64,000 nucleotides of DNA from Pseudobdellovibrio exovorus JSS. Lineage in GTDB: Bacteria > Bdellovibrionota > Bdellovibrionia > Bdellovibrionales > Bdellovibrionaceae. A program made the translations under genes and the position numbers. The notes under the pieces were generated by a model, which made no database searches, was not told the origin of the DNA, and saw only the letters and a list, made by a program, of their open reading frames with translations. The DNA lies in NCBI RefSeq assembly GCF_000348725.1, contig NC_020813.1:1364001-1428000 (forward strand), written 5' to 3'. Positions 40,509-50,004 of this stretch are shown piece after piece (within the stretch, counting starts at the first letter, position 1; every line of letters begins with the position of its first letter).

Positions 40509-41543
40509 ATGATTCGCTCTTTGACTTGCGGCATAGTTATTTATGACGAGATTAAAGAGATTCAGAATCTTATTCCAAAAATCAAACTGGAACTAAAAGA
40601 GTTTGATGTTGAATGGATTTTCGTACTCAACCATGAACAAGCCGAGATCAGAAAATGGATCTCGGACTGGATCAAAGCCAACATTCCCAGCGCTTTATGC
40701 CATGAAAACCCTAGTAATAATTTGGGCTTTGCAAGGCAGATTATTTTAGAAAAAGCCTCTCATGAATATATCTACTTAACAGATCCAGATATCGATATCC
40801 TATCTGGTAACTTAAAAAAGCTAATTCAGTTAGCCAATGTTGAAATCACCAATGAGCCTGATTTAAAATTCTTAGGTTATGGAGGAACAGTAACCCATAG
40901 ATCAACGAATTCCTTGCTACAAAACACATTTGATCTGATGTCTAAGATTTCAAAACTTATTCCCTTTTCTTTTCAAATCCAAAACCATACGTTTTTAATG
41001 GCCGTTGATCACTTACCCTCTTGTCACCTACTCTTAAATAAAAGGCTTGCTATGAGGATTGGTGGTTTTTCTTCCGCTTTTCATAAATATGGTGAAGATC
41101 TGGATTTCACCCATAGAGCCTATACTCACAACTACCGCTTCGTTTTCTTACCTTCGGCGCAAGTTATCCATTGGCAGAACTTCAGCACTCTTCGCTGGGT
41201 TCAAAAGATGTTTCAACATGGTCGTATTCAAATCCCAGTTCAAAGAATGAATTGGAAAGGTGGATTACGCTACTACAGATTGATACCTTTACTCACGCTA
41301 CTGGCCGTGACTGTGTACAGTATCCTCAATATCTACTTTCTACTTTTTGGATTAGCTTTCGTGACTTTGCTTGGCCTTTTCAACACCGGCATCATTGGTT
41401 TTTTCGTTACTTATATCGCTTACTCATTCGGGGAACTTTTTGAGCTAATCGTGCCACTCTTTGAATACAAAAATGCAGAACAATTGCAGGCGATAAATAA
41501 AGACCTGAGACTCCAACTCGGCGAAGCCAAAAACCATAACTAA
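40509..41543 (+). CDS. Family 2 glycosyltransferase with membrane anchor, 344 aa
   Basis: GT-A fold. 'LGFARQIILEKASHEYIYL' and 'TDPDIDILSG' (the DxD metal and nucleotide site) mark the transferase domain; 'MRIGGFSSAFHKYGEDLDFT' carries the ED motif of the acceptor site, and 'HRAYTHNYRFVFLP' follows. Two or three hydrophobic segments near residues 255-315 anchor it in the inner membrane. It begins at the base after the rny stop, so it shares that transcript. Its last 137 bases overlap the convergent glycosyltransferase at 41407. Acceptor and donor unknown. Confidence 0.87.
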   Translation: MIRSLTCGIVIYDEIKEIQNLIPKIKLELKEFDVEWIFVLNHEQAEIRKWISDWIKANIPSALCHENPSNNLGFARQIILEKASHEYIYLTDPDIDILSGNLKKLIQLANVEITNEPDLKFLGYGGTVTHRSTNSLLQNTFDLMSKISKLIPFSFQIQNHTFLMAVDHLPSCHLLLNKRLAMRIGGFSSAFHKYGEDLDFTHRAYTHNYRFVFLPSAQVIHWQNFSTLRWVQKMFQHGRIQIPVQRMNWKGGLRYYRLIPLLTLLAVTVYSILNIYFLLFGLAFVTLLGLFNTGIIGFFVTYIAYSFGELFELIVPLFEYKNAEQLQAINKDLRLQLGEAKNHN

Positions 41544-42192
41544 CCGCCTCTTGGGGATACTGAATCATCTTGTCTTCATTATAACCATGCAGAAACGCAC
41601 GCCGAACAAAATGTTGCCATGAGGTGGTTGTAGAATGAACCACCTCAAAATCTACTAAGGTCTTAAGTTCAAAACCATTCCCCTGCAGCAAGTAAGATAA
41701 GTATTTATCTTCTGCTCCCCAAAAATTATCTTTTTGATGCTCTAAGGCAGGAAGCTCTGTCCAACTTCTGACGAGAAAAGCACCACCCAGAAAAAAATTG
41801 AATTTGGATTCAGGACGGAAAGAGTGCTCAACCCAAATATTCGCCACTAAGTTATGAGCTTTCTGCAAATAAGAAGCACACATTGGGTTGGCGTAATACC
41901 CCGCATAGACCTCGCTCTGTTGAGAGGATTTTTGCACTTCTACTAAACTTGTCAGCACCTGCAGACTTTTTGAAGTCATACGACAATCATGGTCTAAAAA
42001 ACAGAGCCATTGCTCTTGATGGCTTTTGATAAAATCATAACGACTTTGCGATAAAGGATTACACCAAACGATTTGGGCTTGAGCGATCCCCATAGCGACA
42101 AGATCACGCCGTGCTAATTGATATGAACTTTCCGATTGTGCAAATATAACAAATACTATTTGCTGTAAGCCATCTTTTGTTACGATTGCCAC
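41407..42192 (-). CDS. Family 2-like glycosyltransferase, 261 aa
   Basis: The DxD site is 'LCFLDHDCRMTSKSL'; 'FFLGGAFLVRSWTEL' and 'FWGAEDKYLSYLLQGNG' match the acceptor-site region (with the ED motif) of GT2 enzymes. The usual N-terminal 'VSVIIPTYN' strand is reduced to 'QQIVFVIFAQSES'. I start it at the GTG at 42192, since GGTGAT lies about seven bases before it and the open frame upstream only overlaps the neighbouring transferase. It overlaps that gene's end by 13 bases. The last 45 residues are antisense to the neighbouring transferase on the + strand. Confidence 0.8.
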   Translation of the reverse strand: MAIVTKDGLQQIVFVIFAQSESSYQLARRDLVAMGIAQAQIVWCNPLSQSRYDFIKSHQEQWLCFLDHDCRMTSKSLQVLTSLVEVQKSSQQSEVYAGYYANPMCASYLQKAHNLVANIWVEHSFRPESKFNFFLGGAFLVRSWTELPALEHQKDNFWGAEDKYLSYLLQGNGFELKTLVDFEVVHSTTTSWQHFVRRAFLHGYNEDKMIQYPQEAVSYGFWLRRVGVSGLYLSPAIVLHFCIQRVARLAQKVPRMSKRYK

Positions 42193-42899
42193 TTTTTCAT
42201 CACCACAAAAAGAAAAAGAAACCCATCCTTTACAACTGATAACTTCGAATCCCCGACACGATCGCGATAAGCGATGGGAACTTCTGATAACTTCCACTTA
42301 TTTTTTACACTCAAAGCGGTGAACTCGATTGAAAATGCCAAGCCATTATCCTTTAAGGCAATGACCTCACCTTTTTTCGAAGCTTTGAAAATTCTCATTC
42401 CCGAACAAACATCACTTAGTTTTGAGCCCAACAAAACCCTTAAAAGCCAAACATAAAGTCTATTGCCCAAAGATCGTATAATGGAAATATCAGAGTTCGA
42501 ATGAATTCGAGCACCATAGACAATATCCAAATCCTCTTGGTGGAGCTTCTTCCACATATCTATAAGGCTCTTTAAGGGATAGGTGTTATCCAGATCAAGA
42601 AAAGCCAAGTAGTCTGCTCTAGCATGGGCGTATCCATATTTCAGTGCCGCTCCGTAACCTTGTACGGGACAGGAAATAACCTGAAGCCCCTCTATTGAGG
42701 CTTCTAGTTTTTTCAGCAATTCTAAAGAACCATCAGTTGAATTATTATCAACAATCAGAACCGAAAAATCTATATTTGGGACAATTTGCACGCGCTTGAG
42801 TTCTTCTAAAAATAGGCGCAGTTCCTTTTCAAAGAAAGGAATACAATCGACCTCATTATAACATGGCACAATAAGCGCGAGACTAGATTTTTTGAGCAT
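42180..42899 (-). CDS. Dolichyl/polyprenyl-phosphate hexose synthase-like family 2 glycosyltransferase, 239 aa
   Basis: The best-recognised transferase of the locus: 'LALIVPCYNEVDCIPFFEKE', 'VDNNSTDGSLELLKKLEA', 'VQGYGAALKYGYAHARADYL' and the DxD 'FLDLDNTYPLKSL' are standard for the DPM1/GtrB-like group that moves a sugar from a nucleotide to polyprenyl phosphate. 'SDVCSGMRIFKASKKG' and 'YRDRVGDSKLSVVKDGF' complete the catalytic domain. No C-terminal membrane segment of the GtrB type is present. It starts only 21 bases from the divergent transferase at 42921. Confidence 0.9.
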   Translation of the reverse strand: MLKKSSLALIVPCYNEVDCIPFFEKELRLFLEELKRVQIVPNIDFSVLIVDNNSTDGSLELLKKLEASIEGLQVISCPVQGYGAALKYGYAHARADYLAFLDLDNTYPLKSLIDMWKKLHQEDLDIVYGARIHSNSDISIIRSLGNRLYVWLLRVLLGSKLSDVCSGMRIFKASKKGEVIALKDNGLAFSIEFTALSVKNKWKLSEVPIAYRDRVGDSKLSVVKDGFLFLFVVMKKWQS

Positions 42900-42920
42900 C
42901 GCTTATTAGAATAAACTCAT

Positions 42921-44411
42921 ATGAATTTGCTGTCTACTGACAACTCGTTTTATCGCTACAACATCAGTAATAGCCACGATCTGAGCGAGTCTTGCTTTAA
43001 TCGAAGACAAAGCAAAGCTCAATATAACAACAAAAAGTCTTTCTTCTTTAACATAGAATCAAAGCTGGAAGATCCCACTTTAGCCCGCGATTTTTTATCT
43101 TCACATCTTAAAGAAAAAGATATTCTGTGCTGTACGATCGAAACGCATGATGCCTTTTATAAATCTGTTGAAAAAACGAAATATGTCCTCTTAATCCGCC
43201 AAGCCAGCGACTTACCGTTCCTATTAGAACATCTAAAAACCATAGAGAATGTGCTTTTGATCCCAACGAATAAATCTGATCTCGCTAGCTTTACTGAGTT
43301 CCATAAAACACATAACGACAAACTTAATATTTTCTGGAGGTTCTTACCTTTCAGCGAGAATACACCTCAGTCATTAACAGTAAAAGACATCTGTTCGACA
43401 CACATCGACTACAAAACGATAACGGGCCTGGAAATTTACAACCCGAATATTCCACATCATTACGAATTAGTACCACAAAGCAATATCTCTTATAAAATCC
43501 GCTGGAAGACCCAATCAAAAAATCCCGAGAACATTCGTATTTCTGTTATCATCCCAACATTTAATAATTCTATATTTCTTTCAAATGTTGTATGGCACCT
43601 CATCAGACAAAATACGTCTCAGGATCTTTACGAAATCATCATCGCAGACGACGGAAGCACCGATAACAGCAGCGAAGTTTTGTTCAATCTCTATCATAAG
43701 GCATTTGATGGACAGGTAAACATCACCTATATTCACTGGAGTAAACAACATCCTCAGCGCGGCGAGCAAAACTTCTTCCGTCCGGGCCTTTGCCGCAATT
43801 TAGCTGCCCATTACAGTAAAGGGAATTATCTGTTCTTTTTAGACTCCGATATGCTCGTTCCCAATAACTTCATTGAGACCTGCCTGAATGAATTTACGCA
43901 AACGGATGTGATGCAATTCCAACGTTTCCATATAAATCAGGAAAAAAGCTTACAAAATCCTTCTTATAAAGATATCCAAATTGAAAAAGATACCTATATT
44001 GAAGAAAAAAACTATTGGTCACAGCTGTTCTTCTGCCGTAACTGGAGTGATCTACCCGACTATTGGAAATACACATGCACCTATGCTCTAGGCATTGAAA
44101 AGAAAAAGTTTTATGAACTCGGACTTTTTAAAAAATATTATATCTCTTACGGATTTGAAGATACCGACTTAGGATATGAAGCTTTTAAAAGGCGTTTACG
44201 TTTTTCCTTGGTAAAAGTCCCTTTGTTACATCTGACTTCATACGATTTGATGCAGTATAAAAACTCAGCTTCCAAACGGTATACTCTTTTGAAGGTGACA
44301 GCTGAGCTTTTCTTCTTGCAGCACTTACAACCAGAACTATTAACGCTTTTTGGTAGCTTCTATCGCTCTCAGCGCTCTTTAAAATTTCGCCTTAAAGAGC
44401 TTTGGCGTTAA
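42921..44411 (+). CDS. Two-domain family 2 glycosyltransferase, 496 aa
   Basis: The first 200 residues have no recognised domain. From about residue 205 a GT2 domain is clear: 'RISVIIPTFNNSIFLSNVVW', 'IIIADDGSTDNSSEVLF', the DxD in 'LFFLDSDMLVPNNF' and 'LGLFKKYYISYGFEDTDLGY', the C-terminal motif of the galactosyltransferase (Glyco_transf_7C) type. This C-terminal motif is common in enzymes for chondroitin- or capsule-like polysaccharides. The N-terminal part may be a second, degenerate transferase domain. ATG start with no good ribosome site; converges with the next gene with a 4-base overlap. Confidence 0.88.
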   Translation: MNLLSTDNSFYRYNISNSHDLSESCFNRRQSKAQYNNKKSFFFNIESKLEDPTLARDFLSSHLKEKDILCCTIETHDAFYKSVEKTKYVLLIRQASDLPFLLEHLKTIENVLLIPTNKSDLASFTEFHKTHNDKLNIFWRFLPFSENTPQSLTVKDICSTHIDYKTITGLEIYNPNIPHHYELVPQSNISYKIRWKTQSKNPENIRISVIIPTFNNSIFLSNVVWHLIRQNTSQDLYEIIIADDGSTDNSSEVLFNLYHKAFDGQVNITYIHWSKQHPQRGEQNFFRPGLCRNLAAHYSKGNYLFFLDSDMLVPNNFIETCLNEFTQTDVMQFQRFHINQEKSLQNPSYKDIQIEKDTYIEEKNYWSQLFFCRNWSDLPDYWKYTCTYALGIEKKKFYELGLFKKYYISYGFEDTDLGYEAFKRRLRFSLVKVPLLHLTSYDLMQYKNSASKRYTLLKVTAELFFLQHLQPELLTLFGSFYRSQRSLKFRLKELWR

Positions 44412-45391
44412 AAACGGCTACCGCCATCTTGTTTTGATTGAATATCTTTTTTGAGCTTATCCATCAGGTGATAACGCCCTTGATTGAGACTACTCACTTG
44501 ATCACGAAAAAAATGGGGTATAATTTTCCAAAGAGCTTTCTGTTGACGATAATATCCATACCAAAAAGCATAGTTCAGATACCAAAGCACCACCCGATAC
44601 AAAAATGGCTTTTCATCACGCAGAGATCTATAGCTAGCCAACCGGAAGGTACTATTAAACTTTTGGTCAGAATAAGAAGCACCCATCCCTTGCTTAATAG
44701 TTTTACGAGTTAACCCAAAAAAACTTTCCTGCGTATGATGAATCAAATCCAAATCAATAAGAACTTTTTTCAGCCCTTTAGCTTCAGATGCTCTAAAGAA
44801 ATCCATTTCGGTTCCACCATATATCAGGTTTTCATCAAAGCTAATGCCAGAAATTTGAATTAACGACTTCTTAGCAGAAAAGTTCCCGCCTAAAAGAAAT
44901 TGGACTTCGTTCGCCGCACCTTCTTGTTTCTTTCCCCACAACAGCCACTGCTGTTGAATATAATTGTAGATTTCGTCAAAGAATTTAGTACTGGCTGGAA
45001 GCTGGTACCCCCCACCAAAGGCAAAGGTAGAAGGATTCGCTTGATGTAGATCAATGTGGATATCCAGAAAGCGAACTATATCTAACTCACAGTCATCATC
45101 CAAGAAGAGCAACAGTTCAGCTTTAGACTCTTGAATACCAATATTTCTGGCAATATTGGCTCCAATTTTTTCAGAAAATAGAAAATGAATATTCGGAGTG
45201 GACAAATAAGAAGAAAAGCGCTTTTGTAACTCATTTTTTTTCTGAGTTACTCCGCCATTAAAAACAACTAAAGTCTCGATACTTCGATTGGGAGTTTTAA
45301 ATATCTGTTTTTGAATTGAATTCAAGAGCTGTTCTAATCTATCTAAATCAACACCTATACTTGGAATAATTATCGAAATTGATGGCGTCAT
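44408..45391 (-). CDS. Family 2 glycosyltransferase, 327 aa
   Basis: GT2 domain: 'SISIIIPSIGVDLDRLEQLL', 'FSEKIGANIARNIGIQESKA', the DxD 'LLFLDDDCELDIV' and 'FLLGGNFSAKKSLIQISGI' with 'YGGTEMDFFRASEAKGL'. The C-terminal 90 residues contain aromatic amphipathic stretches ('FLYRVVLWYLNYAFWYGYYR') that may lie on the membrane. It overlaps the aromatic repeat protein gene upstream by four bases (ATGA), so the two are co-translated. Confidence 0.87.
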   Translation of the reverse strand: MTPSISIIIPSIGVDLDRLEQLLNSIQKQIFKTPNRSIETLVVFNGGVTQKKNELQKRFSSYLSTPNIHFLFSEKIGANIARNIGIQESKAELLLFLDDDCELDIVRFLDIHIDLHQANPSTFAFGGGYQLPASTKFFDEIYNYIQQQWLLWGKKQEGAANEVQFLLGGNFSAKKSLIQISGISFDENLIYGGTEMDFFRASEAKGLKKVLIDLDLIHHTQESFFGLTRKTIKQGMGASYSDQKFNSTFRLASYRSLRDEKPFLYRVVLWYLNYAFWYGYYRQQKALWKIIPHFFRDQVSSLNQGRYHLMDKLKKDIQSKQDGGSRF

Positions 45392-46767
45392 TTCATTAAC
45401 CGCTTAACTCTAGTATTATATTGATAATTACAAAACCAATAGACTTTACGAATTGGATACAGCAAATAAAGCTTTGTTATACGATAAAGGAATGTACTTA
45501 AATCATAAATTAAGCCGTATCCTTTATAAAGGCACATTAGAAAGAAATGCCTAATATCGTATTTTATAAAATTGATCGCACCAGTAATAAGAACGAAATA
45601 AAGATAATAAAAGACACGATAATATAAAAAATAACCTACTTTATAATAAAGAAAATTCCAGACATGTAGCTTCAAATAACTCCATGTATTCATGATAATT
45701 TTATAAAATATAAAATTCCAAATATAGACCTTTAAAAAAGCCCAAATATTCATAAAAACCTTATAAAATATAAAATTCCAAATATAGATTTTAAAAAAGG
45801 CCCAAGTGCCTAAGATTATTTTATAAAAGATGAAGTTAATCGATTTTACGAGTACTTGGTGATAAAGAAACAAAGTCCCTTTAAATATATAATTGAAGTA
45901 AATTCTATATAAAAATTTATAGACAAAAACATCCATAAATCTATCCCATACGCGAACAAATGCATGATAGCTATCAATAAAAATACCAAAAGATTTAAAG
46001 CCCATCATAAGTAATAAATGACGAACTCCATAAGCAATTTTAATCGCCACAATCTTAACTAAAACAAATCCATAATTAAGAGTCTTCCAAAGTCCTCCCA
46101 GAAAAATCAGAATATATTTCCAGATTATCGCTTTGCAAACAAAACCTAGGAAGGATAACAACTCAAAAAAACGATATACCAAGCGCACATTAGAGTGTTT
46201 CACTCTTTCGAAGAAGCCCTTTGCCTCGTTTATTGGATTAACAAAAAATTTTAAAAACAAAAGAAATATCAGTGGTAACCCAACTGTTTTCGTTTTTACT
46301 TTTTGTGTTTTGATAGCTGGCATCTTCAATATAGAAATATTTTTTGTTTTGAATTGTCGACTAATATACTGTCGATCTTTTAAAGCTGTTGAGTTTAGAT
46401 GACCACACAAAATGATAGTTTGAGTTGCCGCTATTCCTAATTCTTCCAAATAGGATAAGTCGAAATGTTTATGTGACAGAACGTAATATCTTTTCAGACT
46501 ATCCTGAGAAGATATTTTTTCCTTTTCAGCCTCAGAAAGGTATCTGTACAATAGAACGGCGCCGACCTCTTGTTCGAAATTATAATCTACATCAATCTTT
46601 TTTAAATCTAATTGCCCATAACGATTTTCTTGTATGAAAAATCCCGATTTATTATCTTCCACAGGACGTACTTCTACAAAATTCATTACGTACAACATAT
46701 GTTGCCGAATATCTTGCTCTTGTCCGTAGAAAATCAACTTACTTTCGTTCACTCTTCTATCATACAA
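45388..46767 (-). CDS. Aromatic-rich repeat protein, probably membrane-associated, 459 aa
   Basis: No known family. Residues 1-150 look globular and soluble ('IDVDYNFEQEVGAVLLYRYL', 'LSHKHFDLSYLEELG'), with a possible Rossmann-like strand 'QTIILCGHL'. A hydrophobic segment lies near 163-176. From about 195 the protein is extremely rich in Tyr, Phe, Trp, Ile, Leu and Lys; residues 311-390 hold four 20-residue repeats (311, 331, 351, 371). The spacing and Lys/aromatic pattern suit amphipathic helices lying on or crossing the membrane. Start codon uncertain: TTG at 46767 fits the frame, a GTG at 46752 is possible, and no strong ribosome site is seen. It shares a transcript with the transferase at 44408. 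Confidence 0.75.
   Translation of the reverse strand: MYDRRVNESKLIFYGQEQDIRQHMLYVMNFVEVRPVEDNKSGFFIQENRYGQLDLKKIDVDYNFEQEVGAVLLYRYLSEAEKEKISSQDSLKRYYVLSHKHFDLSYLEELGIAATQTIILCGHLNSTALKDRQYISRQFKTKNISILKMPAIKTQKVKTKTVGLPLIFLLFLKFFVNPINEAKGFFERVKHSNVRLVYRFFELLSFLGFVCKAIIWKYILIFLGGLWKTLNYGFVLVKIVAIKIAYGVRHLLLMMGFKSFGIFIDSYHAFVRVWDRFMDVFVYKFLYRIYFNYIFKGTLFLYHQVLVKSINFIFYKIILGTWAFFKIYIWNFIFYKVFMNIWAFLKVYIWNFIFYKIIMNTWSYLKLHVWNFLYYKVGYFLYYRVFYYLYFVLITGAINFIKYDIRHFFLMCLYKGYGLIYDLSTFLYRITKLYLLYPIRKVYWFCNYQYNTRVKRLMK
45598..45837 (-). repeat. Four 60-bp in-frame repeats in the aromatic protein gene
   Basis: The 60-base period is exact. A 27-base block at 45701-45727 recurs at 45761-45787, and the units at 45658-45717, 45718-45777 and 45778-45837 encode 20 residues each with the consensus 'NFIFYK.....W..LK.YIW'. 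The fourth unit (45598-45657) is diverged ('NFLYYK' start only). Confidence 0.93.
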
Positions 46768-46840
46768 GGCGAACTCACAAAGTAAATACTGTATTTAATA
46801 ATCTTGCTAAGCCCATATTTTAGTGAAAACATATCCATAT

Positions 46841-47425
46841 ATGAAGCAGATTTCTTTCTCGGCAGACGCTTTTTCTCACTCACAAATCAAATCTAAGCTA
46901 TGGCTTTCCAATAGTTTTTCCACTTGGTATCGTAAATACTTTTTACCTCAAAATAGCTATACACTTCATTGGTATGGAAGTTGGGTGGGACTAGGTCCTT
47001 TTATACTACTCATTAACTCTGATATACAGATTGATCGCATTGATTTATATGACCTAACCTTAAGTGATCTGGAAGTTTCTAAAAAAATACTTAATTTTTT
47101 CGATTGCGAAGGAGTTCACGTAGTCCCTCACCATCAAGATGTAAACCAAGTACCTCCTGTAGGGATAGAAAATCAAATTTTTATCAATACGTCCTGCGAA
47201 CATATGGCATCACAGGACTGGTTAATTAAGATTCCCAAAGACAGCTTCATAGTTTTACAAGCTACAGATATGCCTCACAAAGAACACATCAATAGCCCGC
47301 AAAGCCTAGATCACTTTATTGAAAAGTATGCCGATCACTTGAATATATTAGAAACAGATCAATTGCCCTTTGAGTATCCAGATAAATCTTTTACGCGTTT
47401 CATGATATTTGGTACAAAAAAATGA
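46841..47425 (+). CDS. Possible class I SAM-dependent methyltransferase, 194 aa
   Basis: The middle and end are suggestive of a small methyltransferase domain ('PFILLINSDIQIDRIDLYDL', then 'QIFINTSCEHMASQDWLIKI', 'FIVLQATDMPHKEHINSP'), where 'NTSCEHM' and 'LQATDMPHKEHIN' occupy the place of post-SAM motifs in sugar- or capsule-linked methyltransferases. The GxGxG SAM loop is not clear ('WVGLGPF'), so this is a pattern-level inference. The ATG at 46841 is chosen; a GTG at 46823 is in frame and neither has a good ribosome site. Overlaps the next gene by four bases. Confidence 0.6.
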   Translation: MKQISFSADAFSHSQIKSKLWLSNSFSTWYRKYFLPQNSYTLHWYGSWVGLGPFILLINSDIQIDRIDLYDLTLSDLEVSKKILNFFDCEGVHVVPHHQDVNQVPPVGIENQIFINTSCEHMASQDWLIKIPKDSFIVLQATDMPHKEHINSPQSLDHFIEKYADHLNILETDQLPFEYPDKSFTRFMIFGTKK

Positions 47426-48789
47426 AAAAATATCTTGGTTGGATTTTATTGCTTCCACTGCTAATTTATGGCTGCTTCTACCATATTTCATCTTCGGAAT
47501 TCTGGCCCATGACGATTTCAAAAACATGGTGGAATTGGTCGTTTTTTGAGCCATCACAATTACAAAAGCCCCTTTTTTCTTTCTTTCTTTCGTTTTTCCA
47601 CATTCTTCCCTTAAGTGATTTAACCCATATTTATTTCGTTAAGTTTGCATTTTCTCTATTAGGTATAGTGGCGCTGTATATCTTTATAAAATCTGCCATT
47701 GAAATTTCTCAAAAACAAATCACACACAACAAACTCATCTTGATTGCTCTTCTTTTTTGTCTATTTAGCCCTATATTCTTGAAAAACTTCTCTCGGATAC
47801 GTTCAGATCAAGTTGGTTTTCTATTCTTTATCCTGTCTGTATATTTTTATTTAATCAGAAGGATGCGACTTTCTTTTTTGTTCGCAATACTACTTCCCAT
47901 CAGCAGTATTAAATCCATTTTATTTTTCATCCCCTTAGCTTTTATTATCCTTCCTCAATACTTAAGCTATTTTAAAAAGCTGAACTTTATAAAAAAACTC
48001 AACTTAACGCTTCTAACCCTTGCTGCCTTAGTTTGGGCTATTGGTTATAATTTATCCGCTCTTTCTTACCTGATCGCTACCTACCAAGATGCTTCTTTCC
48101 CAACTGTCTATTTAAAAAATTTCGTTACTGTAGAAATGCCATTTATCTTATTAAGTATCTTAACATCCTTATGGATCTTGCTTAATAAGCGGCTCCGCCT
48201 TATTCCTTATGCCCTTGCCTCTCTTAGTTCGTTAGCACTTATTGTGGCGATACCTCAATCTTACTCCTACTATATCGCCAGTTTTGTCCCTATAGTCTAC
48301 CTGCCACTGCTTACCGTCTTAATCCAATATGGATTCCAATACAAAAAGGTCTTTGTCACAACGCTATCTCTATGCCTGCTGTATTCGAGCATTATGATGT
48401 GGAAGAAGAACCTTCCCTATTTTATTTCTAGTTGTCCGCAAATACTTTTTATCTCAAAAGCCTCAGCCTTAACTAATCTTCATGGGTTTAATTATCTTGA
48501 TGGGATGGGGATGCTGCCTCGGCAAAATCTGATTCCTTGCTTCGCTTCCCCTTCTGACCCCATAGCGAATAATGGCTGTCGCGAAGCCTTAGAAAATCAG
48601 CCGGATGTTATCATTATCACACAAAGACTTCTAGAACTTGGAAATGAGTCATTCAAGGTAGCTGCTGAAAATTATTTTCAGGTCTATCCCAACTACTGGG
48701 TACATCAAAAATACAAAGAAGAAGTCGAAATAAAAAAGGGAGATCTTGATAACCTCCCCGTGCCTTTGATTATATTTATGGTGGATTAA
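47422..48789 (+). CDS. Polytopic membrane protein, possible GT-C type transferase, 455 aa
   Basis: Ten or more hydrophobic segments spread over the whole length. The early loop 'SEFWPMTISKTWWNWSFFEP' with 'LQKPLFSFFLSFFHILP' (first outside loop, Trp-rich with Glu and Asp nearby) and 'NFSRIRSDQVGFLFFILSVY' resembles the arrangement in the GT-C (ArnT/PMT-like) superfamily, which uses polyprenyl-phosphate sugars; the nearby DPM1-like transferase would supply such donors. The C-terminal outside domain is about 70 residues with a pair of Cys ('LIPCFASPSDP', 'NNGCREAL'). Assignment to GT-C is inferred. Its stop directly abuts that of the prepilin gene. Confidence 0.72.
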   Translation: MKKYLGWILLLPLLIYGCFYHISSSEFWPMTISKTWWNWSFFEPSQLQKPLFSFFLSFFHILPLSDLTHIYFVKFAFSLLGIVALYIFIKSAIEISQKQITHNKLILIALLFCLFSPIFLKNFSRIRSDQVGFLFFILSVYFYLIRRMRLSFLFAILLPISSIKSILFFIPLAFIILPQYLSYFKKLNFIKKLNLTLLTLAALVWAIGYNLSALSYLIATYQDASFPTVYLKNFVTVEMPFILLSILTSLWILLNKRLRLIPYALASLSSLALIVAIPQSYSYYIASFVPIVYLPLLTVLIQYGFQYKKVFVTTLSLCLLYSSIMMWKKNLPYFISSCPQILFISKASALTNLHGFNYLDGMGMLPRQNLIPCFASPSDPIANNGCREALENQPDVIIITQRLLELGNESFKVAAENYFQVYPNYWVHQKYKEEVEIKKGDLDNLPVPLIIFMVD

Positions 48790-50004
48790 TTACATATCCA
48801 CTTTGTAACAGCTTAACGAAACGTAATCCGTCCGACCGCTATAACTCTGTGCAATACCTAAAGAGCATTGCCCAACCGTCGTATCACCATAAGTAGAACT
48901 CGGAGGTCCCGATGGACAACGCTGACGAATAGTATAAAGCTCCCCCGGAACCGCGATAAATTTAGCTTCTACGATCGCATTGGACATAGCCCACTGCCCC
49001 GCAGTAGTTGTACCCTCAGCAATTACTGTACTGTTAGTTACATTATATATCTGCACCCCAAAACTTCCTGTCGAGAAAGCCTGCGCATTTACGATACAAC
49101 TATAAGGTCCTCCATTATTGGCTGTGAATGTAAACCTTGTTGCTGGAGATGAAAGCTGGTAAAGAGAAGAATCTCCACTTGGGTTTTGCCACAACCCCCT
49201 GTCTCCACCAGTTGGGTAATATCCCCACCCCGCTGTACAAGCTCCGGCTCCTGCATTTGCACAACTAGGAGTTGAATTTGCTGGAGTAAACCCCATAGTC
49301 AGACGGAACTGACGATTGGTTTGAACAGCCGTACGTTTTACGACGATATCATAACGACCATCATTTTCTGGTCCTTCTAAGTCAATTCGCGACAGATTCC
49401 CTTGATCTATCAAGCCTCTGAAGCGATGCAAGTACCCTTGATTCGATGGATTGTAAATTAAACGACCCACAATTTTAACTTGCGGGTTCACACACGTTGT
49501 CCCTGATGGACAAGTGTACATATACACTAATCTATAAGAGATCGGACATGAGTCATTCCCCATGTTTCCAGTTTGTGAAGACGTAAAAGTACTACAGGTG
49601 GCTCCGCTTTCAGTAAAGCCGTTTGAACCTGTACCAGCCCAATTTAATAAGTTAAACGCCTCATTGTTAGCGGCATCTCTGACAACTAATTTTTGAGGAG
49701 CCGTTCCTGCGATGACAGCACAGGCGGTTGTATCGCGCAAACACGCTGTTGACTGATTCGCAGGGGTAATGGCTAAGTTGTTGGAATCAGCCAAGGTGTA
49801 GGTCCATGCCTGCTGATCTCTTAGCATATTCTCGATCCGGATTTTATTTTCACGAAGAGTGGCTAGAAGAACGGTTTTCTTTTGCTCGATCATCGAGTTC
49901 TGAATCATGGTCGCAATACCCAACGACACCACTGCCGTTAGACCTGCCGCGACCAGAACTTCGATAATACTTATACCTTTTTGATTACGAACTTGATTCA
50001 TCAT
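48790..50004 (-). CDS. Type IV prepilin-like protein (PilW-like minor pilin), 404 aa
   Basis: The N-terminus is a type III signal: 'NQKGISIIEVLVAAGLTAVV', with Gly before the cut, Ile at +1 and Glu at +5, followed by a hydrophobic helix. A C-terminal domain of about 350 residues has many Cys, Gly, Thr and Asn and reads as beta-rich ('RFRLTMG'-like strands), with several probable disulfides. Length and layout are PilW-like. No other pilus genes are nearby, so it may be an orphan or accessory pilin. Upstream fadE is 59 bases away on the same strand; a hairpin sits in the leader. Confidence 0.85.
   Translation of the reverse strand: MMNQVRNQKGISIIEVLVAAGLTAVVSLGIATMIQNSMIEQKKTVLLATLRENKIRIENMLRDQQAWTYTLADSNNLAITPANQSTACLRDTTACAVIAGTAPQKLVVRDAANNEAFNLLNWAGTGSNGFTESGATCSTFTSSQTGNMGNDSCPISYRLVYMYTCPSGTTCVNPQVKIVGRLIYNPSNQGYLHRFRGLIDQGNLSRIDLEGPENDGRYDIVVKRTAVQTNRQFRLTMGFTPANSTPSCANAGAGACTAGWGYYPTGGDRGLWQNPSGDSSLYQLSSPATRFTFTANNGGPYSCIVNAQAFSTGSFGVQIYNVTNSTVIAEGTTTAGQWAMSNAIVEAKFIAVPGELYTIRQRCPSGPPSSTYGDTTVGQCSLGIAQSYSGRTDYVSLSCYKVDM

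Follow-up and report, generated by a model that had tools for sequence, protein, structure and literature searches.

The glycosyltransferase genes analysed here very probably belong to one coherent, conserved system, which occupies positions 40509-50004 of the window, i.e. of the 64,000 nucleotides of Pseudobdellovibrio exovorus JSS under study (NC_020813.1, 1,364,001 to 1,428,000). This cassette comprises five GT2-like genes (GTa to GTe), the aromatic repeat protein AROM, a small conserved protein, the GT-C transferase GTC and a type IV prepilin-like protein. In Pseudobdellovibrio and some of its relatives, the conserved sugar-transferring enzymes travel together with a pilus-like protein and an odd helical protein, a combination that points to a system for decoration with sugars which includes an undescribed component that positions the enzymes. 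In its full form, our reading is that of a lipid-carrier glycosylation system devoted to the neighbouring prepilin-like protein, whose cytoplasmic enzymes are gathered at the membrane by AROM, and we see the chances for and against it as evenly balanced.

The gene positions and the strand pattern (+,-,-,+,-,-,+,+) given in the preliminary description were reproduced, but its limits, 40509-48789, are too narrow, the prepilin gene at 48790-50004 being part of the unit. The overlaps between genes are likewise real and some are kept across genomes: the tail-to-tail overlap of GTa and GTb (131-182 nt) occurs in all 7 genus members holding both genes, and the 4-nt overlap of the AROM stop with the GTe start is kept in 10 of 11 genomes.

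The assignment of five genes to the GT2 type stands for four of them over Pfam cut-offs, whereas GTb (41407..42192, minus strand) lies under every cut-off and is tied to GT2 via GTe, which aligns to most GTb orthologues and whose profile is matched by GTb relatives. This divergent GT2-like protein probably starts at a GTG at 42192 and not at the mechanical ORF start at 42297, because alignment with its orthologues sets in only at about residue 46-51. GTa (40509..41543, plus strand; PF13632, 31.4 bits) carries a TM-like hydrophobic C-terminal stretch at residues 257-305 and has orthologues in 6 other genus members. GTc (42180..42899, minus strand; PF00535, E 1.5e-25) is a predicted polyprenyl-phosphate sugar synthase of the DPM1/AglJ-like kind. 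Here a resemblance only is claimed, as the NCBIfam equivalog scores are not reached (TIGR04182, E 2.7e-23, 82.8 bits against a cut-off of 325; NF041391, E 1.4e-21, 76.4 bits against 375). GTd (42921..44411, plus strand) is the most distinctive gene of the system, with an N-terminal domain of about 200 residues followed by a GT2 domain at about 207-420 (PF00535, E 7.1e-21). An N-terminal CxxxCxxC was found in 7 of the 39 GTd proteins compared; it is absent from the first 120 residues of the window protein, and with this motif missing the window GTd was rejected as a radical SAM enzyme. The fifth gene, GTe (44408..45391, minus strand), encodes a GT2 glycosyltransferase (PF00535, E 1.8e-11).

GTC (47422..48789, plus strand) had been called a possible GT-C transferase, and its fold confirms this, with a soluble C-terminal part. 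The protein has no Pfam match. Its AF2 model is mostly helical (pTM 0.81) and superimposes on ALG12 with Z 18.2 (rmsd 5.4, 387 aligned), on ArnT with Z 15.9 (5f15; rmsd 4.6, 407 aligned) and 15.2, and on ALG9 with Z 14.7. Thus the fold is the same as in these enzymes, whereas sequence identity in the alignments is 8-12%. In the fold search 54 of 999 chains reached a Z of at least 8, and the first unrelated chain followed at Z 5.1. A simple Kyte-Doolittle scan revealed 8 hydrophobic segments, in agreement with the at least 8 transmembrane segments of GT-C enzymes. Residues S25, E26 and W28 do not vary in either of two alignments, of 8 and 9 sequences, and the sole DxD, a motif which was sought together with its variants in the first extracytoplasmic loop, lies at 441. 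From the ALG12/ArnT fold of the model a polyprenyl-phosphate sugar is the probable donor, and it appears likely that GTC would use the one made by the DPM1-like GTc. The earlier proposal that a DPM1-like enzyme beside a GT-C-like protein fits lipid-linked sugar donors is supported by the family matches of GTc and the fold of GTC.

AROM (45388..46767, minus strand; a GTG at 46752 is a possible alternative start) is modelled by AF2 with modest confidence (pLDDT 67, pTM 0.36) as a small alpha/beta N-terminal domain followed by about 295 residues of aromatic and basic helix with tandem repeats. The repeats noticed beforehand exist at the DNA level: TRF reports a 60-bp (20-residue) tandem repeat at 45687..45828 (minus strand) in two overlapping rows with 88% and 77% match, and the protein periodicity at lag 20 is matched in height by none of 200 shuffles. 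AROM has no match in Pfam, NCBIfam or PDB sequences. No fold match was obtained at E<=0.001, and residues 1-159 gave weak hits (Z 3-4.6), most of them to chains resembling TIM barrels; absence from these fold lists rules out no family. Orthologues of AROM were found. Between species the repeats differ, with DNA-level units of 15, 16, 20, 22, 26, 27 and 33 residues where arrays were found, and the last stretch stays much alike. At the end of the protein lies a C-terminal box (residues 431-459, 45391..45477, minus strand), matched at E 3.7e-14, 0 residues from the end, by a box profile which includes this sequence itself. This box was detected in 33 of 140 order genomes (E<=0.05) and in 27 of 368 phylum genomes (E<=0.001). 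It forms the C-terminus of stand-alone AROM and, in sister lineages, of GTd, GTe and radical SAM proteins, to which box and aromatic/basic tail are fused. A profile comparison of the AROM N-terminal domain with GTd and GTe revealed no homology, the box alone being aligned with GTd, and gave no support to the idea that AROM is kin to a GTd paralogue (772 aa, locus L082) and has lost the GT2 domain. The fusions and the overlap with GTe incline us to regard AROM as a membrane scaffold or localiser of glycosyltransferases. In helical amphipathicity 6 of 21 tails exceed z=2 at 100 degrees and others peak at 120-160 degrees, so that a uniform amphipathic helix was dropped and, because of this inconsistency, a membrane-lying tail helix is weakly supported. 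More tentatively, tail and constant box may represent a new enzyme-localising module. In it a strongly constrained box of about 25 residues would follow lineage-variable repeats under mainly compositional constraint, and the whole would pass between proteins of different kinds, be they glycosyltransferases, stand-alone carriers or radical SAM enzymes, and bring those that serve a single glycan pathway together at the inner membrane.

For the small conserved protein (46823..47425, plus strand) homologues exist in other loci of the system, with no match in L059 and L063. It has no Pfam or NCBIfam match, and the label methyltransferase-like is left without family support: no methyltransferase family of Pfam matched the window protein, and PF01564 appeared at E 0.079, below cut-off, in a single protein when the window's and 8 homologues, 9 in all, were scanned.

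The prepilin-like protein (PILIN, 48790..50004, minus strand) is adjacent to GTC. Its N-terminus shows G-x4-E, which we take to be the prepilin cleavage and methylation motif, followed by a hydrophobic stretch at 9-35, and PF07963 matches slightly under its cut-off (E 4.3e-4, 20.2 bits against 21.2). Six cysteines are invariant in 10 prepilin sequences. Of the 25 GTC loci read, 16 have a prepilin ORF no farther than about 5 kb from GTC, several of these matching weakly (E 1e-9 to 1e-4); at the other 9 loci no prepilin is nearby. By comparison, 15 control loci (201,755 bp) gave a single weak hit. In G035, prepilins and GTC are located on separate contigs.

The same gene order and strands were observed in seven Pseudobdellovibrio species (three followed only up to contig ends), that is in 7 of 14 genus genomes. 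An order conserved across the phylum had been named as evidence against a lineage-specific locus; such conservation is seen in part of the genus and does not extend to the phylum, where GTd is patchy (44 of 368 genomes) and gene order in the loci read is shuffled. Within the order, GTd is present in 37 and GTC in 32 of 140 genomes. Among these 140 genomes, with kinship only partly corrected, GTd accompanies GTC in 30 of 32 cases (expected 8.5), the box at E<=1e-3 in 25 of 26 (expected 6.9) and a near-full-length prepilin match in 15 of 15 (expected 4.0), or 16 of 16 if G068, with a prepilin truncated at the edge of a contig, is added. The co-occurrence also holds when counted by genus. In one genome nested among carriers, G002, the cassette is lacking, RNase Y and FadE lie 70 bp apart, and genome-wide no match to GTd, GTC, AROM or a near-full-length prepilin was obtained at the cut-offs used. 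This gap is best read as loss, because in the RNase Y tree G002 is the sister of the carrier G007 with 100/100 support. GTd forms a single genus clade (support 100/99); an ancient transfer between families is possible.

The A+T richness described for these genes holds for overall G+C, which is 0.294-0.410 in the eight genes against 0.414 +/- 0.026 in the flanking ORFs above 200 aa (n=43), but not for the third codon position, at which the cassette (0.289-0.421) stays within the range of all 51 flank ORFs (0.277-0.456; 0.376 +/- 0.030 in the 43 above 200 aa). The bias is therefore attributed largely to amino-acid content. Codon z-scores against the flanks range from -1.89 to +0.42; they are low for several cassette genes, GTC outranking just 1 of 43 flank genes. 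In three sister species cassette G+C tracks the flanking genes up and down, most cassette genes still lying below the flanks as in the window. As for ribosome sites, said to be poor in several genes, GTd, the small gene and AROM with its GTG start have a weak one or none, GTa and GTe a moderate one and the prepilin a strong one.

Taken together, the following pathway can be proposed. By family, GTc would charge polyprenyl phosphate with a sugar at the cytoplasmic face, and GTa, GTb, GTd and GTe, presumably users of nucleotide sugars, would build or extend a lipid-carried glycan at the inner leaflet. At the membrane, AROM would collect GTd, GTe and perhaps further transferases; the tail that is covalently joined to GTd or GTe in sister lineages is present here in detached form, as the AROM repeat helix. 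The donor lipids would then cross by a flippase assumed to be encoded elsewhere, and GTC, judging from its modelled fold, would transfer the sugar in the periplasm. A Pfam scan of the nine cassette proteins detected neither a flippase nor an oligosaccharyltransferase. As acceptor, the adjacent prepilin would be the most likely protein, given adjacency, co-distribution and co-absence; that it is in fact glycosylated is about as probable as the opposite.

A surface glycan, as first suggested, is one possible product; because of the prepilin linkage, glycosylation of a pilus-like protein is at least as likely. The GT2 enzymes would suit a surface polysaccharide equally well. In this rival reading the locus makes a polysaccharide or glycolipid of the cell surface, similar to an LPS core or a capsule, to which GTC adds sugar outside, the prepilin being an independent adhesin that shares the neighbourhood. 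Several GT2 enzymes per locus are typical for polysaccharide loci, and this cassette has several; GTd and GTe match exopolysaccharide enzymes of NCBIfam below cut-off, and the 9 of 25 GTC loci without a nearby prepilin fit as well. However, the scan of the nine cassette proteins turned up neither Wzx nor Wzy and neither an ABC exporter nor an initiating phosphoglycosyltransferase, a near-full-length prepilin occurs in GTd genomes exclusively, and G002 lacks the prepilin along with the rest of the cassette, which leaves this explanation as a serious but less probable one. A different role for AROM was also considered, namely that of an integral membrane protein in its own right, e.g. the missing lipid flippase, with no scaffold. 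Three TM-like stretches at residues 161-253 and the lack of a recognised flippase in the cassette speak for this, but box and tail are elsewhere fused to GT2 enzymes and a radical SAM protein, in 29 box proteins the net charge over the final 150 residues is +5 to +38, and repeat units vary by lineage, unlike in a transporter; we consider such a role unlikely.

That the locus is a recently acquired genomic island is highly improbable. The lower overall G+C, the patchy distribution and the clean empty site in G002 would suit an island, but third-position G+C in the flank range, the order shared by seven species, the single GTd clade of the genus, the reading of the G002 gap as loss and the absence of any tRNA from the window do not. 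Conserved order, composition and trees led us to reject acquisition within the lifetime of the carrier clade, so that of the phrase acquired or lineage-specific the second part, a lineage-specific glycan locus, is retained.

Surface contact with prey is essential to predatory Bdellovibrionota. A search of open PMC text returned no report on pilus glycosylation in this group and nothing published on the cassette locus; a text search within PMC11055950 on the P. exovorus life cycle gave no passage on glycans or pili, and one for glycosyl terms in PMC11656739 and PMC5941755 gave none either. Parts of PMC5430801 report type IVb pilin genes as necessary for predation. The locus offers candidate enzymes and a candidate acceptor for pilus glycosylation in these predators. 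If the proposed module is real, such a box, itself constant but borne on rapidly diverging repeats and shared by glycosyltransferases and radical SAM enzymes, would add a new means of keeping the members of a pathway together, and would clearly exemplify conservation of composition in the absence of conserved sequence.

Among membrane-associated glycosyltransferases, LpxB is described as such in PMC5785501, and the available sections of that paper, to which this comparison by description is limited, make no mention of tandem aromatic/basic repeats or an end box. In lipoteichoic acid glycosylation of the CsbB-YfhO and GtlA-GtlB type, a cytoplasmic GT-A enzyme charges C55-P for an extracytoplasmic GT-C partner (PMC5836110, in part). 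The pairing of GT-A and GT-C enzymes is alike in the cassette, whereas the acceptor there is a Gram-positive polymer, and the passages available from that source mention no prepilin or repeat protein. A precedent for the proposed reading is TfpW, as partly described in PMC11841053, a GT-C arabinosyltransferase modifying the associated type IV pilin in Pseudomonas aeruginosa group IV strains. In the cassette, too, a GT-C gene adjoins a prepilin gene. By description rather than by sequence, the cassette differs in its extra GT2 enzymes, in AROM and in its large cysteine-containing prepilin.

The cassette at 40509-50004 in P. exovorus JSS, an epibiotic predator, contains all eight genes of the preliminary description on the strands given there. 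Four of the five glycosyltransferases claimed (GT2-like GTa to GTe) score over a Pfam cut-off whereas GTb lies under it, and the small gene at 46823-47425 (+), which had been called methyltransferase-like, has no family support in Pfam or NCBIfam. The unit reaches past these eight genes, since a prepilin gene (48790-50004, -) belongs to it. The supposed lack of good ribosome sites applies to GTd, to the aromatic repeat protein AROM (GTG start) and to the small gene, which show little or no Shine-Dalgarno pairing compared with mechanically chosen flank gene starts, but not to the prepilin gene, where pairing is strong. Outside the window (G000:C1:42035-45590 and 47344-47937), four further prepilin-like ORFs form a cluster of their own; the prepilin profile matches them over their N-terminal part only.

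The locus is real and conserved and no artefact. It had been proposed to be acquired or lineage-specific, and to be A+T rich. The G+C content of the eight genes is indeed lower (0.294-0.410 against 0.414 +/- 0.026 in the 43 flanking ORFs of more than 200 amino acids), but foreign codon use was not found: third-position G+C (0.289-0.421) compares with 0.376 +/- 0.030 in the 43 flanking ORFs and stays inside the range of all 51 flank ORFs (0.277-0.456), and the z-scores for codon use lie between -1.89 and +0.42. The A+T richness is therefore mostly a matter of amino-acid content, and we judge that the locus was not acquired recently.

Of the 14 genomes of the genus that were seen, seven, the window's among them, carry the cassette. 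Gene order and strands are the same downstream of the RNase Y gene in G008 (L058), G012 (L059) and G003 (L064), are kept in G007, where the cassette is divided over two contigs (L062, L063), and are kept as far as the contig end in G010 (L065) and G005 (L060). G012 and G007 gave no match to the small gene; G012 and G003 each have two prepilin genes. In G010, two prepilins lie at the edge of a different contig (L237); the GT-C transferase gene GTC is therefore probably missing there through an assembly gap. In G002 (L061), 70 bp separate RNase Y from FadE, the genes flanking the cassette site, and GTd, GTC, AROM and a near-full-length prepilin are absent together at the cut-offs used. The RNase Y tree pairs G002 with the carrier G007 at 100/100 (enclosing branches 94/92 and 80/73), the FadE tree does not resolve its position, and loss is the simplest reading of these sequences. 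GTd was not found at E<=1e-40 in the genus members G001, G004, G006, G009, G011 and G013. In each of the seven genus members holding both genes, GTa and GTb overlap tail to tail at their 3' ends over 131-182 nt, a conserved convergent overlap (41407-41543 in the window) of unusual length. The overlap of AROM with GTe measures exactly 4 nt in 10 of the 11 genomes having a stand-alone AROM, a hint of translational coupling.

No match to AROM (45388-46767, -) was found in Pfam, in NCBIfam or among PDB sequences. In its model, residues 1-150 form an alpha/beta domain (mostly 72-86 in block pLDDT), and the chain beyond, starting at residue 163, is purely helical apart from short interruptions (44-78). 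When the N-terminal part was compared with known folds, all chains returned were weak and most were TIM-barrel-like (Z 3-4.6). Orthologues share the N-terminal domain, vary in the middle and are near-invariant at the end. A profile of this end, the box (residues 431-459), built from 17 sequences and searched against the 2,855 ORFs of the fetched loci, matched 22 ORFs at E <1e-4, each with the box at most 24 residues from the C-terminus; five lie outside the profile's own sequences (L178, L192, L175, L179, L183), and L185 has one weaker internal second copy. The box terminates stand-alone AROM proteins, but is also fused to the end of GTd (G034, G086, G095, G110, G112, G303) or GTe (G106, G108, G109, G114, G139), while some GTd and GTe of other lineages lack it. 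Three radical SAM-type proteins end in it as well: L234:7825-9180 (PF04055, 4.3e-13) and, with a CxxxCxxC motif, L236:8034-9380 and L244:7263-8414, the last without Pfam match. A second AROM-box match of our own genome lies outside the window (L083:7861-7983; G000:C1:2377860-2377982) in an open frame of 57 residues, probably a remnant, flanked by transglycosylase-like and TypA-like genes; two genes resembling radical SAM lie at a distance of a few kb (all named by eye).

The constant box is preceded by a variable, aromatic and basic tail. When the aromatic+KR-DE fraction of the last 150 residues was compared with that of 550 control ORFs, 25 of the 29 box proteins lay above the controls' 99th percentile and six above their maximum; four are unremarkable. 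TRF found DNA arrays (units of 45, 48, 60, 66, 78, 81 or 99 bp, match rates 70-100%) in nine of 19 box or tail genes and none of this sort in the other ten. The protein repeat lag was reached by none of 200 shuffles in 12 of the 29 proteins, by one or two in three and by ten or more in 14. Clear repeats are thus common, not universal. The GTd of G034 and G089 are 72% identical in the enzyme part and 30% in the tail. A single amphipathic helix geometry shared by the tails was not supported, as hydrophobic moments at 100 degrees gave z>2 in 6/21 only. At 831 residues, the AROM of G035 (L178:11629-14124) repeats some 15 times a unit of 16 residues in which Trp, His, Arg and Lys are abundant.

Among 140 genomes of the order, 37 carry GTd (E<=1e-40), 32 GTC (E<=1e-5) and 26 the box (E<=1e-3, counted from search rows). 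The prepilin profile matches 52 at E<=1e-10, most over the N-terminal part only; near-full-length matches (reaching model position 355 or further, E<=1e-45) occur in 15, and G068, where a contig end cuts the gene (E 1.2e-38), is a possible sixteenth. GTd is present in 30 of the 32 GTC genomes (hypergeometric p 1.4e-21), in 25 of the 26 box genomes (1.5e-17) and in all 15 near-full-length-prepilin genomes (1.7e-10; 16/16 and 3.0e-11 with G068), and tallied over 65 genera the values are 7e-14 (GTC), 3e-4 (prepilin) and 9e-7 (box), kinship being not fully corrected for at either level. Across 368 genomes of the phylum, GTd was found in 44 and the box in 27 at the same cut-offs. A prepilin ORF lies within about 5 kb of GTC in 16 of 25 GTC loci examined, several being weak N-terminal matches; the other nine, some on short contigs, have none. 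In 15 control loci around RNase Y that lack the cassette, 201,755 bp in all, a single weak prepilin match appeared (E 3.7e-4). In the GTd tree, family f1 minus G014 is grouped at 99/97. Families f4, f6 and f12 are scattered over the tree, and GTd may thus have undergone older transfers between families.

GTC (47422-48789) has a GT-C fold. Its AlphaFold2 model, from an alignment with eight homologues (nine sequences), reached pLDDT 77 and pTM 0.81. Foldseek gave ALG9 (8.3e-4), ALG12 and ArnT as best chains, and a second structure aligner ALG12 (Z 18.2) and ArnT (Z 15.9); among its best 50 rows, only GT-C-type chains, PIG-U counted among them, appear down to Z 9.1, the first unrelated chain having Z 5.1. 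From the fold family, the donor is predicted to be of the polyprenyl-phosphate type, and GTc of the same cassette, a DPM1/AglJ-like predicted polyprenyl-phosphate sugar synthase, is the expected partner.

CxxxCxxC occurs in the N-terminal part of 7/39 GTd proteins, including L183:7685-9187, which suggests that the corresponding domain of GTd in the window may be a radical SAM domain that has degenerated. ORFs with this motif close to their start were also frequent where other families have their glycosyltransferase loci: the scan counted 29 of them, and none in the Pseudobdellovibrio carrier loci that it covered.

In the best-supported picture, cytoplasmic GT2 enzymes would take part in a membrane-bound glycan assembly, held together by the tail module, which would act as part of the enzymes themselves (in cis) in several lineages and as the separate AROM (in trans) in Pseudobdellovibrio. 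GTC would complete the glycan work outside the inner membrane, with the prepilin as its likely target. The gene content, its conservation, joint absence and co-occurrence, the GT-C fold, the fusions and the constant box were observed directly, while donor, acceptor, scaffold role, membrane geometry and a use at the cell surface are inferred from them. Our searches, confined to open PMC text, turned up no relevant published account of Bdellovibrio pilin glycosylation or of the cassette locus. The closest working analogue is TfpW, a GT-C family arabinosyltransferase of P. aeruginosa that modifies its associated pilin (PMC11841053), and the closest mechanistic template is the CsbB-YfhO model of C55-P sugar formation, flip and GT-C transfer (PMC5836110). 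The locus would thus encode a form of lipid-carrier glycosylation linked to a prepilin, and its tail-and-box module could be the part that is new in kind.
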